Shown: positions 31,271 to 37,941 of the stretch, in pieces
Position numbering within the stretch: position 1 is the first letter of the stretch
How the letters are laid out: every line of letters starts with the position of its first letter
DNA from: Acidimicrobiaceae bacterium
GTDB taxonomy: Bacteria; Actinomycetota; Acidimicrobiia; Acidimicrobiales; RAAP-2
Assembly: GCA_003163875.1 (NCBI GenBank)
Contig: PLRK01000051.1
Coordinates: 1-49,140 of the forward strand
Direction: 5' to 3'
Length of the DNA: 49,140 bases
Position numbers and translations under genes: made by a program
The notes under the pieces: generated by a model
Databases searched by the model: none
What the model was told of the DNA's origin: nothing
Seen by the model: the letters and a program-made list of their open reading frames with translations, nothing else

Positions 31271-32608
31271 CTAGAACTCGTGGGTGTGTTCGCCTTGAGC
31301 GTGCTGGACGAAACGGCGGAATTGGGAGACCGTCACGGCGTCCTTTGATCGGATGAGTACGGGGGTGCGTTCGGTGTACTGGTAGTTCTTGACGTGCTCT
31401 TCGTACTCGATGAAGAACGACCCCGTGGGGTCAAAGGGTCGTTGCAAATTTTGAACCGCGATGTTCTGGTCCATCTGATCGAGGCGAATGAGCGCCTCAG
31501 GGTCCGTGAGGTCACGAATGTCGAAGGCCGCGCGCATTTGGTCAAAGGCGAGCATGCCTCGTTCCGTGCGAACGAGGACTGACGTCCAGCCGTCATCGGA
31601 ACCCACCGATCCCACCGAGATGTCAGCAGATCGACCCATGAAGTCCGCACATTCGTCACAGCCGCGCAGCGCCGAGTGGTGGAAGTTCTTAATGGGTTCG
31701 TCGAGGGCGATTGCCCCGTCCACGTACTCGACGATCAATCGACCGCGAATCACATCCACCTTGCTCACCCGGCGCAAGTCGATGCCGCGCTCGAGTTCGA
31801 GGTCGTTCAAGATGAGGCTCTCGTAGTCGAAGTTCTTGGTGCACATCAACGCGATCGACAAGGTGACCGCGTCGACTCGGTGGTCGCCCGTGGGCCAGCG
31901 GTGCGACTGCATGGCTCGAAGCCCTTCCACCGCACACGGCGTCGCGACGACGGCGATCCGTGGCTTCTTTGGCAATTTGTACTTGGACAAATTCAGCTCG
32001 CCTAAGACCATGGTCTGGTTGTAGAACGAACCTGACGTTGCCCGAAGTTCTGCGACGTTGGTTGCGATCGTGGCGACACCCTTCCACGGCGTCGACGGAT
32101 CCGTCGAGGGCTTGGAGACCAGCGCGCCGTCGATGGCGCCGGTCTTTAACAGCGCGGTCAACAGCGCCGTGACGGCACCACCGTCCTGTGCGTCATCGTT
32201 GCGACTGGCGCTTCGCACACTGAAGGCACCGAGAACTCGACCGAGACCGGACGCCGGATCGGCACCTTCAAGGCTGAAGTAGGGGTCCGCGGGATCGGGC
32301 TTGGAGATGATCTGCACCGGTGTCGAGGTTGGTTCGGGCGTCGCGGGAGGCCACTGTGCCTCGTAGCGAAGACCCGCTCGAGGGCAAAAGTCCCAGCACA
32401 GTGAGCATCCGGTGCACATCTTGACGAGTTCGGGAAGATTGGTGAGCTGATTGACGCCAATCGAATTCGACGGGCACACCGCGACGCAGGTACCGCATTG
32501 GATGCAGCGATCGGCGTCGATGACTCCGGCCGCCAACTCCCAGAACCACGTCTTACGAGGCGCCTCGGCGATGTCGTTCATTGACTCGCGAAGTTGGTTT
32601 CCCTTCAC
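31271..32608 (-). CDS. FrhB/FpoF-like coenzyme F420 hydrogenase/dehydrogenase beta-subunit family protein with two [4Fe-4S] ferredoxin motifs
   Basis: CIQCGTCVAVCP and CTGCSLCWDFCP; GAVTALLTALLKTGAIDGALV, VATPCAVEGLRAM, CDECADFMGRSADISVGSVGSDDGWTSVLVRTERG; GTG start overlaps the upstream stop. Confidence 0.85.
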   Translation of the reverse strand: MKGNQLRESMNDIAEAPRKTWFWELAAGVIDADRCIQCGTCVAVCPSNSIGVNQLTNLPELVKMCTGCSLCWDFCPRAGLRYEAQWPPATPEPTSTPVQIISKPDPADPYFSLEGADPASGLGRVLGAFSVRSASRNDDAQDGGAVTALLTALLKTGAIDGALVSKPSTDPSTPWKGVATIATNVAELRATSGSFYNQTMVLGELNLSKYKLPKKPRIAVVATPCAVEGLRAMQSHRWPTGDHRVDAVTLSIALMCTKNFDYESLILNDLELERGIDLRRVSKVDVIRGRLIVEYVDGAIALDEPIKNFHHSALRGCDECADFMGRSADISVGSVGSDDGWTSVLVRTERGMLAFDQMRAAFDIRDLTDPEALIRLDQMDQNIAVQNLQRPFDPTGSFFIEYEEHVKNYQYTERTPVLIRSKDAVTVSQFRRFVQHAQGEHTHEF

Positions 32609-34329
32609 GAGGATCGGCCGTTCACGATGTTGCGCAAATCACCAATGTTCGTGCGCCGCGCCCAGGCGGTGAACGTCTCACCCTCGCGGTGTTGCTGATC
32701 GTAGGCGAGCGTGGTGTTGAGAATGGCGTCTTCGAGGTCGCGCACCGGGACCGCGCCTTCGACCCAGTTGATGAATCCCGCTTCAGGACCGAGCGCACCA
32801 CCGAGCCCAACGTCGTAAGCTTCTTCGAGTTTGAATTCGCCCTTGTGGATCGCACCGCGAAGTCCGATGTCGGCGATCTGGGGTTGCGCGCACGAGGCGG
32901 AACATCCAGAGAGGTGCACGCGTAGCGGGGTAGTGCGCAATGGGCTCTGCGGTGAGAGTTCTTCGAGTCGGGCGTCGAGACGCTTCGCCAGCTGTACCGC
33001 GCGCTGCTTCGTCTCGGTGATGGCGTAGCGGCAGAATTCATTGCCGGTGCACGCAACGACACCACGCGTGAAGGGGCCCGAGTTCGGACTGAATTTTTGC
33101 ATGAGGTCCTCAGCGAGGAGTGCGTCGACCAACTCGTTCGCGACGCCCGAGAGAATAAAATTCTGGTCCACACCAAGTCGCACGTGCCCGTCCCCGTAGT
33201 GTTCGGCGAGTCGGGCCGCTTCGGCAAGCTCGAGGCCGGTGAGGCGCCCCGCGGGTACGACGCAACCTACGTAGGAAAAGCCCTCTTGGCGTTGGGCGTG
33301 CACGCCGACGTGGTCCCGACGAAAACCAGTTTGTAACGCCGTGGCACCCGAGCGTGGCTCCACGTTCAGTCGAGCGACGAGCTCAGTTCGGAATTGCTCG
33401 GGACCAAGTTCTTCGACGAGGTAGCGCATCCGTGCAACGCCGCGGTGTTCGCGATTTCCGAGTTCGGCGAAGACCTGGGCGATACCCCTCGCGACTTCGA
33501 CAGCTTGGTCGCTCGTAATGAAAAGGTCGAGGTCCGATCCCAATCGTTCGCCGTCGGAAAGTCCTCCGCCCACGAGGACGTTGAATCCCGTGACGTCACC
33601 GAGAGACGCGGGCCAGAATCCGATGTCATTGATTTCCACTCGTGAGCAGTCCTCGCTACAACCACTCACCGAAATCTTGAACTTTCGCGGAAGGTTCGCG
33701 TAAGTGCGGTTCCCGGTGAAGAAGTCAGAGATCGCCGTCGCGACTGCCAACGAGTCGACAATCTCGTGGGCGTCGACCCCACTAACGGGACAACTCGTGA
33801 CATTTCGAGCGCAGTCGCCGCACGCCTGCACCGACGTGAGACCAACGCGAGCGAAGCGCTCCCAGATCCGAGGGATGTCCGCCATGTGCAACCAGTGCAG
33901 TTGAATCGTCTGACGCGTGGTGATGTCGCAGTAACTGTTACCAAAGAGTGGGTGATCGTCCGGACCGCGTCCGAACGCTTCGGCGGCGAGTCCGATTTCA
34001 CGAGCCTGGGGTGCCGTCAAGACGCCACCGGGGACCTTCACGCGCATCATGAACGCGTCGCCGCCTTGGCGCTGTGGGTAGACGCCCACCCATTTGAGTC
34101 GCTCAACTTCGTAGGGCACTGCGTTCAGGGCGTCGACGCCGTCTTTGGCGTAGGTATTGATGACGGCGGCAGCGACCTCGAAAGGGTGTCGGCGAAGCTT
34201 CATCAGTTCGGTGTCGTTGAGTTCACCAATGTTTCGATAGGGATTGAGGAAGGGGAGGCCTTCGACCGTCGGTCCGTCGAGTCCAAGACCGTACGGGTCG
34301 TCGTGTGTGTCGCGTCGAGTGGTGCTCAC
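32605..34329 (-). CDS. siroheme/[4Fe-4S] sulfite or nitrite reductase (assimilatory type)
   Basis: ERLKWVGVYPQRQGGDAFMMRVKVPGGVL, YCDITTRQTIQLHWL, ACGDCARNVTSCPVSGVD; cofactor motif C-x5-C (CTGNEFC) then C-x3-C (CSASC). Confidence 0.88.
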   Translation of the reverse strand: MSTTRRDTHDDPYGLGLDGPTVEGLPFLNPYRNIGELNDTELMKLRRHPFEVAAAVINTYAKDGVDALNAVPYEVERLKWVGVYPQRQGGDAFMMRVKVPGGVLTAPQAREIGLAAEAFGRGPDDHPLFGNSYCDITTRQTIQLHWLHMADIPRIWERFARVGLTSVQACGDCARNVTSCPVSGVDAHEIVDSLAVATAISDFFTGNRTYANLPRKFKISVSGCSEDCSRVEINDIGFWPASLGDVTGFNVLVGGGLSDGERLGSDLDLFITSDQAVEVARGIAQVFAELGNREHRGVARMRYLVEELGPEQFRTELVARLNVEPRSGATALQTGFRRDHVGVHAQRQEGFSYVGCVVPAGRLTGLELAEAARLAEHYGDGHVRLGVDQNFILSGVANELVDALLAEDLMQKFSPNSGPFTRGVVACTGNEFCRYAITETKQRAVQLAKRLDARLEELSPQSPLRTTPLRVHLSGCSASCAQPQIADIGLRGAIHKGEFKLEEAYDVGLGGALGPEAGFINWVEGAVPVRDLEDAILNTTLAYDQQHREGETFTAWARRTNIGDLRNIVNGRSS

Positions 34330-34624: not shown

Positions 34625-35485
34625 TTGACGAACCAGTCTGGCGAAGGAGCCGAAGTAATTCGAGCGGCGCTCGTGCAAACGAAGTGGACGGGCGACAAGC
34701 AGTCGATGATCGAGGCGAACGTGGCGCTCGCGAGACGCGCCGCAGAACAAGGCGCGAAGGTCCTGTGCTTCCAGGAACTCTTCTATGGTCCGTACTTCTG
34801 CCAAGTGCAAGATCCCAAGTACTTCGACTACACCGAGACCGTCCCGGGTCCTACGACAGAGGTGATGTGTGCACTCGCGAAGGAGACGGGCATGGTGCTA
34901 GTGGTGCCGGTCTATGAGAAGGAGCAAGAAGGTCTCTTCTATAACACCGCCTTCGTCATTGACGCCGACGGCACGTATTTAGGCAAATACCGCAAGCACC
35001 ACATTCCCCAAGTGAAGGGCTTCTGGGAGAAGTTCTATTTCCGACCCGGCAACCTCGGCTACCCGGTCTTTGCCACCGCGGTGGGACCGATTGGTGTGTA
35101 CATCTGTTACGACCGCCATTTTCCTGAGGGCTGGCGAGCTTTTGGACTGGGTGGCGCGCGCATTGTCTTTAATCCTTCGGCGACGAGCCGTGGACTATCG
35201 ATGTACCTCTGGAACTTGGAGCAGCCCGCGGCGGCAGTCGCCAACGAGTACTTCGTCGGCGCAATCAATCGAGTGGGCGTTGAAGAGCTTGGCGACAACG
35301 ACTTCTATGGTTCCTCGTACTTCGTCGATCCACGCGGCCAACTGGTTGGCGAGGCGGGTTCGCAAAAGGAGGACGACGTGATCATCCGCGACCTCGACAT
35401 GTCGACGCTCGCCGAGGTGCGCCACACCTGGGCCTTCTATCGCGACCGCCGCCCCGAGAGTTACGGCGCATTGGTCGAGCCCTGA
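34625..35485 (+). CDS. nitrilase-superfamily amidohydrolase, probable beta-ureidopropionase
   Basis: AALVQTKWTG, CFQELFYGPYF (E), KYRKHHIPQVKGFWEKFYFRPG (K), GVYICYDRHFPEGWRAFGLGGARIVFNPSA (C); TTG start. Confidence 0.85.
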   Translation: MTNQSGEGAEVIRAALVQTKWTGDKQSMIEANVALARRAAEQGAKVLCFQELFYGPYFCQVQDPKYFDYTETVPGPTTEVMCALAKETGMVLVVPVYEKEQEGLFYNTAFVIDADGTYLGKYRKHHIPQVKGFWEKFYFRPGNLGYPVFATAVGPIGVYICYDRHFPEGWRAFGLGGARIVFNPSATSRGLSMYLWNLEQPAAAVANEYFVGAINRVGVEELGDNDFYGSSYFVDPRGQLVGEAGSQKEDDVIIRDLDMSTLAEVRHTWAFYRDRRPESYGALVEP

Positions 35486-35510
35486 TCACGTCACGACGAG
35501 GAGGCGAGTG

Positions 35511-36914
35511 ATGAAGACGCTTATTACTGGGGGAACCGTCGTCAACGCGAGCGGCCCATTTGACGCCGACGTCCTCATCAAGGGCGAGAGCATCGCGGGA
35601 CTGGCGTCACCTGGTTCCGAGACGGCGCTGTCGTGGAAGGACGGGGCTGATCGCGTGCTTGACGCGACTGGCCAGTACGTTATCCCCGGCGCGATCGACG
35701 CGCATACCCATATGGAGATGCCCTTTGGCGGAACGTTCTCCGCCGACACGTTCGAGACCGGTACTCGGGCGGCCGCCTTTGGAGGGACCACCACCATCAT
35801 CGACTTCGCGATTCAAAGCAAGGGCAAGAGCCTGCGAAGCGGTCTCGATGACTGGTTCGCCAAGGCGGAAGGCAACTGCGCGACGGACTACGCGTTTCAC
35901 ATGATTGTCTCGGACGTGAATAAGCAGTCCCTTGACGAGATGGATCTTCTGGTCGATGAGGGGATCGCGAGTTTCAAGTTGTTCATGGCGTATCCCGGAG
36001 TCTTTTATTCCACCGACGGCGAAATTCTCCAAGCGATGCAGCGTGCCTCGCTTAATGGCGCAACCATCATGATGCACGCGGAGAACGGCATCGCGATCGA
36101 TGTGTTAGTCGCTCAGGCACTCGAACGCGGCGAAAGCGATCCTCGTTTCCATGGAGCGACGCGACCATCGATTCTCGAAGGCGAAGCGACGCACCGCGCG
36201 ATCCAGTTGGCGCAAGTAGCGGGTTCGCCGCTGTACATCGTGCATCTCTCTGCACGCGAGGCACTCGAGCAAGTAGTGGGCGCGCGCGATCGTGGTCAAA
36301 ACGTGTTCGCCGAGACCTGTCCTCAATACCTATTTCTTTCCGAGGCGGACCTCGCTCGTGAGGGTTTCGAAGGTGCAAAGTTTGTGTGTTCGCCACCGTT
36401 GCGTGATTCCAGCCACCAGATTGACTTGTGGCGCGGACTGCGCACTGACGACCTCAGTGTCGTGTCGACTGACCACTGCCCATTTTGTTTCAAGGAACAA
36501 AAAGAGCTGGGAGTAGGCAATTTCTCCAAGATTCCCAACGGCATGCCCGGCGTCGAGCACCGACTGGACCTGATCTTCCAGGGCGTCGAGATGGGCGAGA
36601 TCTCCTTGGCACGCTGGGTCGACGTGACGTCAACGACGCCGGCGCGGATGTTCGGACTCTTTCCTCGAAAAGGTCTGATTGCGCCCGGTTGCGACGCGGA
36701 CCTCGTACTGTACGACCCCAACTTCACGCACACGTTCTCATCGGCGACGCATCACATGGACGTCGACTATTCGGCGTACGAAGGAATGAAGGTAAAGGGT
36801 AAGGCGACGACGATTCTTTCGCGAGGACAGATTCTCGTCGAAAACGACAACTACGTGGGCACCCCGGGTGCAGGGAAATTTCTCAAACGTGGTTTGAACG
36901 GTTTGCTCCGCTAG
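35511..36914 (+). CDS. dihydropyrimidinase / D-hydantoinase family
   Basis: PGAIDAHTHMEMPFGG, GIASFKLFMAYPGVFYSTDGEI, MMHAENG, VHLSAREALEQV, STDHCPFCFKEQKELG. Confidence 0.88.
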   Translation: MKTLITGGTVVNASGPFDADVLIKGESIAGLASPGSETALSWKDGADRVLDATGQYVIPGAIDAHTHMEMPFGGTFSADTFETGTRAAAFGGTTTIIDFAIQSKGKSLRSGLDDWFAKAEGNCATDYAFHMIVSDVNKQSLDEMDLLVDEGIASFKLFMAYPGVFYSTDGEILQAMQRASLNGATIMMHAENGIAIDVLVAQALERGESDPRFHGATRPSILEGEATHRAIQLAQVAGSPLYIVHLSAREALEQVVGARDRGQNVFAETCPQYLFLSEADLAREGFEGAKFVCSPPLRDSSHQIDLWRGLRTDDLSVVSTDHCPFCFKEQKELGVGNFSKIPNGMPGVEHRLDLIFQGVEMGEISLARWVDVTSTTPARMFGLFPRKGLIAPGCDADLVLYDPNFTHTFSSATHHMDVDYSAYEGMKVKGKATTILSRGQILVENDNYVGTPGAGKFLKRGLNGLLR

Positions 36915-36942
36915 TGGGAAAACACGTGTGGAACGGAGGTTC

Positions 36943-37941
36943 ATGGAATTCGGGCTGGTAGCGCAAACGAATCCGCCGGCGAAGGACGTGATTGAGCTCG
37001 CCAAGCGAGCCGAAGACGCCGGGTTCGATTATTTCTGGACGTTTGACTCGGCGGTGCTGTGGCAAGAACCCTTCGTCATTTACTCGCAAATCCTCAGCGC
37101 GACGACCTCAATCAAGGTCGGACCAATGGTGACGAACCCTCTGACGCGTGACTGGACGGTTACGGCATCATTGTTCGCGACACTCAATGACATGTTCGGT
37201 CCCCGTACCATTTGTGGCATTGGCCGCGGCGACTCGGCGGTCCGATTTACAGGAGGAAAGCCGTCGACGCTCGCGGAATTGGCCCAGTGCATCGAGGTCA
37301 TTCGATCGCTGGCCCGGGGCCAAGAGATCACGCTTCGTGATCAGACTTTTAGCATTCCTTGGGTAAAGAACGGTGCGCTCGACGTGTGGATGGCGGCGTA
37401 TGGACCAAAGGCCCTCAAGGTAGCGGGTGAATACGCCGACGGACTGATTATGCAGCTCGCCGATCCGTTCATTGTGCGCTGGGCTATTGAGAACGTCGAC
37501 GCTGCGCTCCAAGGGTCGAATCGAAGTGACGAGCCGTTCAGTGTGTGTGTGGCCGCGCCCGCGTACGTGGGCGATGACGTGGCGCACCAACGTGATCAGT
37601 GTCGCTGGTTCGGTGGCATGGTGGGCAATCACGTCGCGGACATCGTTGGTCGCTACGGTGATGATCTCTCGGTCGTGCCCGCGGCCTTGACCGAGTACAT
37701 CAAGGGGCGAAAAGGTTACGACTATCGCCATCACGGCAAAACCGGTAACCCCGACACCGAGTTCGTACCCGATGAAATCATTGACCGGTTCTGTATCCTC
37801 GGTCCGGTCTCCTCGCATCTGGAGCGACTCCAGGAACTCTCGTCGCTCGGTACTGATCAATTCTCGCTCTATCTGATGCATGACAATCCCGAAGGCACGA
37901 TTGACGCGTATGCGAAACGCGTCATTGGGCAGGTTGAGTGA
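36943..37941 (+). CDS. LLM-class (luciferase-like) F420-type oxidoreductase
   Basis: MEFGLVAQTNPPAKDVIELAKRAEDAGFDYFWTFDSAVLWQEPFVIYSQILSATTSIKVGPMVTNPLTRDWTVTAS; LLM (beta/alpha)8 pattern. Confidence 0.82.
   Translation: MEFGLVAQTNPPAKDVIELAKRAEDAGFDYFWTFDSAVLWQEPFVIYSQILSATTSIKVGPMVTNPLTRDWTVTASLFATLNDMFGPRTICGIGRGDSAVRFTGGKPSTLAELAQCIEVIRSLARGQEITLRDQTFSIPWVKNGALDVWMAAYGPKALKVAGEYADGLIMQLADPFIVRWAIENVDAALQGSNRSDEPFSVCVAAPAYVGDDVAHQRDQCRWFGGMVGNHVADIVGRYGDDLSVVPAALTEYIKGRKGYDYRHHGKTGNPDTEFVPDEIIDRFCILGPVSSHLERLQELSSLGTDQFSLYLMHDNPEGTIDAYAKRVIGQVE

Follow-up and report, generated by a model that had tools for sequence, protein, structure and literature searches.

In the window, by which we mean the whole stretch of 49,140 nucleotides that was analysed, a gene for a siroheme reductase (sir) lies directly upstream of a gene for an FrhB-like protein. 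This raises the question of whether the two genes encode a single enzyme and, if so, from which donor it takes electrons and to which substrate it passes them. The original prediction proposed a split version of Fsr, the F420-dependent sulfite reductase of methanogens, acting on sulfite or nitrite. The features of the pair are given in Table 1. As had been described, the two reading frames overlap by four nucleotides, which likely results in translational coupling. Of the 84 sir-frhB junctions that were scored, 51 have this 4-nt overlap and 14 others overlap by a single nucleotide.

Table 1. Features of the sir-frhB pair, with positions in the window.
Feature	Position	Strand	Description	Basis
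sir (aFsr-alpha-like)	32605..34329	-	574 aa, GTG start; two-repeat assimilatory siroheme sulfite reductase (predicted)	NIR_SIR/NIR_SIR_ferr
C170 and C180	33790..33822	-	part of the extra N-half cysteine quartet	invariant, 75 pair members
K216-F217-K218	33676..33684	-	sulfite-type K-x-K signature	sequence comparison
C224-x3-C228	33646..33660	-	part of the extra N-half cysteine quartet	sequence comparison
C427-x5-C433	33031..33051	-	first half of the siroheme-linked [4Fe-4S] motif	invariant, 75 homologues
C476-x3-C480	32890..32904	-	second half of the siroheme-linked [4Fe-4S] motif	invariant, 75 homologues
GTGA overlap	32605..32608	-	4 nt, sir stop and frhB start	ORF coordinates
frhB-like (aFsr-beta-like)	31271..32608	-	445 aa, GTG start; 2x[4Fe-4S] ferredoxin part and FrhB domain	FrhB_FdhB_N/C, Fer4
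C35-x2-C38-x2-C41-x3-C45	32474..32506	-	first ferredoxin [4Fe-4S] motif	Pfam, invariant
C65-x2-C68-x2-C71-x3-C75	32384..32416	-	second ferredoxin [4Fe-4S] motif	Pfam, invariant
FrhB N and C domains	31526..32221	-	flavin/F420 module with invariant C225, C256, C317 and C320	Pfam, alignment

To see how widely the pair occurs, we scanned GTDB genomes with the FrhB-like protein and obtained 80 loci with an identity of about 49% or higher. These come from acidimicrobial metagenome-assembled genomes (MAGs), from Rubrobacteraceae, among them the isolate R. taiwanensis, and from a few other genomes including one Thermomicrobiaceae MAG. Of these loci, 76 have a contig that extends to the position of sir, and in every one of them this gene is directly upstream of frhB on the same strand; the contigs of the remaining 4 of the 80 loci start inside or just before frhB. 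Since order and strand are the same in every informative locus and the overlap recurs, we conclude that the pairing is not due to chance. A strong FrhB match was found in 7 of 296 genomes of the class sample, and all seven carry the paired reductase. In the phylum sample, 34 of 348 genomes have a strong match, nearly all from one family, which is Rubrobacteraceae judging by the loci. FrhB paralogues with about 30% identity have no reductase neighbour in the class within the short flanks covered. Such distant paralogues occur in many Acidimicrobiia, and the host genome (G000) itself has a second, more distant FrhB-like gene that is cut by a contig end (contig C113, 4018-4794, - strand).

The pair is also present on plasmids of the haloarchaea Haloferax mediterranei, Haladaptatus, Salinirubellus, Halomontanus and Natronococcus, where the genes are annotated as 'ferredoxin--nitrite reductase' or 'rhodanese-like' and as 'Coenzyme F420 hydrogenase/dehydrogenase beta'. 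Adjacency is thus conserved across bacterial phyla and haloarchaea and not limited to this genome. In the tree of the reductases, the pair members including the haloarchaeal ones form one clade (support 89/86), with the NasA-linked haloarchaeal nitrite reductase outside, and in the FrhB tree they group together against the paralogues (100/100); both trees contain a small outgroup set, and some long branches meet. Two Natrialbaceae plasmids (L151, 4338-6878; L152, 4556-6955) carry a longer siroheme gene that is annotated as rhodanese-like, and the N-terminal part of the L151 protein matches sulfurtransferase models, i.e. it is a rhodanese-reductase fusion. In one annotated haloarchaeal FrhB protein (L149, 6476-7030), about 170-190 additional residues at the N-terminus have no Pfam match.

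We then analysed the two subunits separately. The sir protein matches NIR_SIR with 180 bits and NIR_SIR_ferr with 121 bits, and its best solved relatives by sequence are plant nitrite reductase (NiR) and M. tuberculosis NirA. Its structural model (mean pLDDT 87) aligns to both with TM scores of 0.81-0.85 and to Fsr with 0.32. The protein has the two-repeat NirA/NiR fold rather than a single-repeat Dsr-like reductase domain with an inserted ferredoxin. The C-x5-C...C-x3-C motif and the two N-terminal 4Fe-4S motifs of the FrhB-like protein, both part of the original prediction, were recovered, and their cysteines are invariant among 75 sequences. An additional cysteine quartet in the N-terminal half of sir (C170, C180 and C224-x3-C228; 33646-33822, - strand), invariant among the pair members, mirrors the catalytic motif and may bind a second cluster. 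We considered the quartet as a specific mark of the pair and ruled this out: it also occurs in Acidimicrobiia reductases without FrhB, and is thus no mark of F420 coupling.

Reductases related to sir (about 38% identity over the best stretch) were detected in 129 of the 289 sampled Acidimicrobiia genomes without the pair, and a second full or partial match in about 4 of 47 genomes with the pair. The pair thus seems to replace the other reductase form of the Acidimicrobiia, in a comparison that ignores phylogeny.

For the FrhB-like protein, Pfam gives Fer4 clusters together with FrhB_FdhB_C at 115 bits and FrhB_FdhB_N at 66 bits. In addition to the eight ferredoxin-motif cysteines, the four cysteines of the FrhB domain are invariant among the 75 homologues, and these four probably bind a third [4Fe-4S] cluster as in FrhB and the N-terminal part of Fsr (Fsr-N). 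The closest solved relatives by sequence are Fsr, F420-reductase subunits of Ca. Ethanoperedens and FrhB. HCAR, a ferredoxin-linked member of the same fold, is absent from the protein's match list against solved structures (E 0.001), and a haloarchaeal pair member scores 85-148 bits against F420 enzymes versus 17 bits against HCAR. The FrhB proteins of the pair are thus not close relatives of HCAR, and an HCAR-like donor is weak by sequence. The AlphaFold2 model has a mean pLDDT of 71, with a core mostly at 80-95 and a low-scoring ferredoxin part; with this model of moderate confidence, Foldseek lists F420 modules first and HCAR later (TM about 0.46).

Can the hosts supply F420? The host genome contains cofH/fbiC and cofD, here scored as gene presence. 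The co-occurrence survey that accompanied the original prediction as a proposal gave cofD and/or cofH/fbiC in 44 of the 47 pair genomes tested. In the phylum sample, cofD is present in 31 of 34 pair genomes versus 158 of 314 others, although these counts are phylogenetically non-independent, as one family supplies most of the matches, so that a P value based on them is not reliable. The link is closest in this family. In Rubrobacteraceae, the genes cofD-cofE-cysH-sir-frhB-sat-cysC follow each other on one strand in an apparent operon, with both cof genes over the cut-off (TIGR01819 with 316 bits and TIGR01916 with 280 bits). Judging by coordinates, about 20 of the family's sampled genomes have cofD and frhB on one contig, roughly 5-10 kb apart. 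An NADPH:F420 reductase scores over the cut-off in 31 of the 47 pair genomes, including most of those from Acidimicrobiia; the host genome has it only as fragments at a contig end. Sequence and gene context make F420H2 the most likely donor: the subunit resembles solved F420 enzymes most closely, F420 genes accompany the pair in nearly all genomes tested, and the apparent operon of Rubrobacteraceae includes cofD-cofE.

An ABC transporter ATPase is present near the pair in about 30 acidimicrobial loci (e.g. L041, 7451-8389), mostly just downstream of frhB. Its best-scoring model is 'putative F420-0 ABC transporter'; however, the score of 125 bits is far below the cut-off of 372 bits, and we thus do not use it as evidence. 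In the window, a gene similar to N-carbamoylputrescine amidase, a dihydropyrimidinase and an F420-dependent luciferase-like oxidoreductase (TIGR03842, 537 bits at a cut-off of 295) are found in a row (34625-37941, + strand), which suggests that F420 is linked to the breakdown of pyrimidines or hydantoins.

The original prediction left the substrate as sulfite or nitrite. The neighbourhood of the pair speaks for sulfite: cysH (phosphoadenylyl-sulfate reductase) is present in 56 of the 80 loci, usually directly upstream, and sat (ATP sulfurylase) and cysC (APS kinase) follow the pair in 14 and 13 loci of the Rubrobacteraceae type, respectively. A siroheme-type tetrapyrrole methylase is near the pair in 7 loci, and a neighbour cluster of 12 loci is represented by a TauE/SafE permease that recurs in Rubrobacter; the longest-ORF tiling of high-GC loci also yielded shadow ORFs, and some neighbour clusters have no assignment. 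However, cysH does not adjoin the pair within the window, and cys genes are not found close to the haloarchaeal pairs. In the host genome, cysH is accompanied by a weak CysD-like fragment, located at a contig end, which is the sole hint of the other type of sulfurylase; the sat family PF01747 is absent from this genome by family search. The sequence of sir is in line with sulfite as well. It combines K-x-K with CX5C...CX3C as found in assimilatory sulfite reductases, which is suggestive only, and all pair members compared have R-K-x-K, with asparagine in the last position in the NasA-linked haloarchaeal NiR and in tobacco NiR. The signature is not decisive, as nitrite is reduced in vivo by a methanogen Fsr that carries this lysine (PMC13381448). 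Searches for NasA homologues were negative around all pair loci, in the host genome and in the six further pair genomes whose completeness is known. Where a NasA homologue is present (G306 and G316), a separate partial reductase match adjoins it on the same contig. In the host genome, the pair is the sole reductase of its kind detected. Taken together, the neighbouring cysH, sat and cysC genes, the K-x-K signature and the lack of NasA make sulfite the most likely substrate, and nitrite, the other half of the earlier proposal, was set aside as the leading candidate.

We thus consider the pair to be, quite probably, a two-subunit, F420H2-dependent assimilatory sulfite reductase. CysH would first make sulfite from (P)APS. 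F420H2 would be oxidised at the flavin of the FrhB-like subunit, and the electrons would pass singly through the FrhB-type [4Fe-4S] cluster and the two ferredoxin clusters, in this presumed order, to a siroheme subunit held in a complex, which would use six electrons to reduce sulfite to sulfide for cysteine synthesis. The F420H2-linked enzyme of two subunits that had been predicted thereby gains support from the conserved adjacency, from the F420 genes of the host and from the Rubrobacteraceae operon.

Other readings share part of this evidence. The same F420H2-dependent enzyme could have nitrite as its physiological substrate, for assimilation or detoxification. The best scores of sir are indeed against ferredoxin-nitrite reductase models and plant NiR, the window neighbours of the pair are nitrogen-salvage genes, and both methanogen Fsr and the FsrII of ANME archaea reduce nitrite (PMC13381448, PMC9295563). 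As the pair loci carry cysH, sat and cysC, lysine stands in place of the asparagine of K-x-N, and NasA is either not found or next to a different reductase match, we regard nitrite as quite improbable. We also find it unlikely that the FrhB-like subunit accepts electrons from a donor other than F420H2, for example from reduced ferredoxin as members of the HCAR branch do. The shared fold with HCAR, a siroheme partner of the ferredoxin-dependent type and the related Acidimicrobiia reductases that have no FrhB would fit such a donor, whereas the much closer sequence relation to F420 enzymes and the position of cofD and cofE within the Rubrobacteraceae operon argue for F420H2.

Lastly, the two genes might merely be co-regulated, with a ferredoxin-fed siroheme subunit and an FrhB-like protein that serves another F420 reaction. 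The class has many FrhB paralogues that have no reductase next to them, which would agree with a separate role, but strict adjacency over large distances, overlapping reading frames and the separate clades formed by both subunits make this very improbable. A two-subunit F420H2-dependent sulfite reductase remains our preferred explanation.

If this is true, the pair would be, as far as found in the open-access literature, the first case in bacteria of an FrhB/Fsr-type enzyme in which sulfite reduction is coupled to F420H2. F420 would gain a central metabolic task, the supply of sulfur for cysteine, beyond methanogens and mycobacterial redox chemistry, and the routine annotation of the haloarchaeal members as 'ferredoxin--nitrite reductase' would be corrected. 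More speculatively, and with considerable doubt, bacteria of at least two phyla might have a full assimilatory sulfate reduction pathway powered by F420, in which several [4Fe-4S] clusters on two subunits connect the flavin and the siroheme of the final enzyme; the N-half quartet would then bind a relay cluster that tobacco NiR lacks, and F420 would be retained by these bacteria in good part for sulfur assimilation. The cofD-cofE-cysH-sir-frhB-sat-cysC operon makes a prediction from 2012, described below, directly testable in the cultivated Rubrobacter taiwanensis, and Haloferax mediterranei, whose pair is E6P09_RS15580/RS15575, could be used for the pair itself.

Of the known systems, M. tuberculosis NirA (1zj8) and tobacco NiR (3b0g) are homologous to sir along most of its length. 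NirA and plant ferredoxin-nitrite reductase are ferredoxin-dependent and have no FrhB-type subunit, and tobacco NiR further differs from sir by K-x-N and by lacking the N-half cysteine quartet. Fsr (group I), the F420-dependent sulfite reductase of methanogens (PMC10229431), serves assimilation in M. thermolithotrophicus (PMC10322725). Its F420H2-oxidase half is homologous to the FrhB-like subunit, and the outline of the electron route, up to the reduction of sulfite to sulfide, is proposed to be the same in the pair. However, Fsr is one polypeptide with just one Dsr-like repeat as its reductase half (PMC10229431, PMC3448663), whereas the pair consists of two ORFs without the fusion typical of Fsr groups I and II, and its reductase is of the two-repeat NirA/NiR type. 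The idea of a split Fsr thus holds for the FrhB half, which is Fsr-N-like, and fails for the reductase half. The pair, which we propose to work like Fsr with a different reductase, is a separately assembled analogue. The F420H2-dependent nitrite reductase FsrII of ANME-2c (PMC9295563) would resemble it in passing electrons from F420H2 to siroheme; it differs as a single, nitrite-specific polypeptide with an altered substrate pocket.

The closest precedent is the two-gene 'aFsr' (aFsr-alpha/aFsr-beta) that Susanti & Mukhopadhyay predicted in haloarchaea in 2012 (PMC3448663) and that was still called putative by Heryakusuma et al. in 2022 (PMC9295563). In the part of the 2012 paper considered here, aFsr has the same parts as our pair, i.e. 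one gene for an assimilatory-type siroheme reductase and one of the Fsr-N/FrhB type that has two additional [4Fe-4S] motifs at its N-terminal end, and Rubrobacter xylanophilus and Thermobaculum terrenum appear in the legend of the Fsr-N tree, only as leaves (PMC3448663). The idea of such an enzyme is thus not unprecedented, although we found neither a characterised bacterial case nor biochemistry of an aFsr-type pair in the open-access literature searched. In the window, an assimilatory-type sir lies beside an Fsr-N homologue, both subunits group with the haloarchaeal pairs (with few outgroups), and F420 genes are present in the host. We thus conclude that the window pair is an uncharacterised bacterial member of the kind predicted as aFsr. 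To that prediction, as far as the same part of the paper describes it (PMC3448663), our analysis adds the acidimicrobial members, the sulfate-assimilation operon with cysH, sat and cysC, and the linkage to F420 biosynthesis through cofD-cofE.
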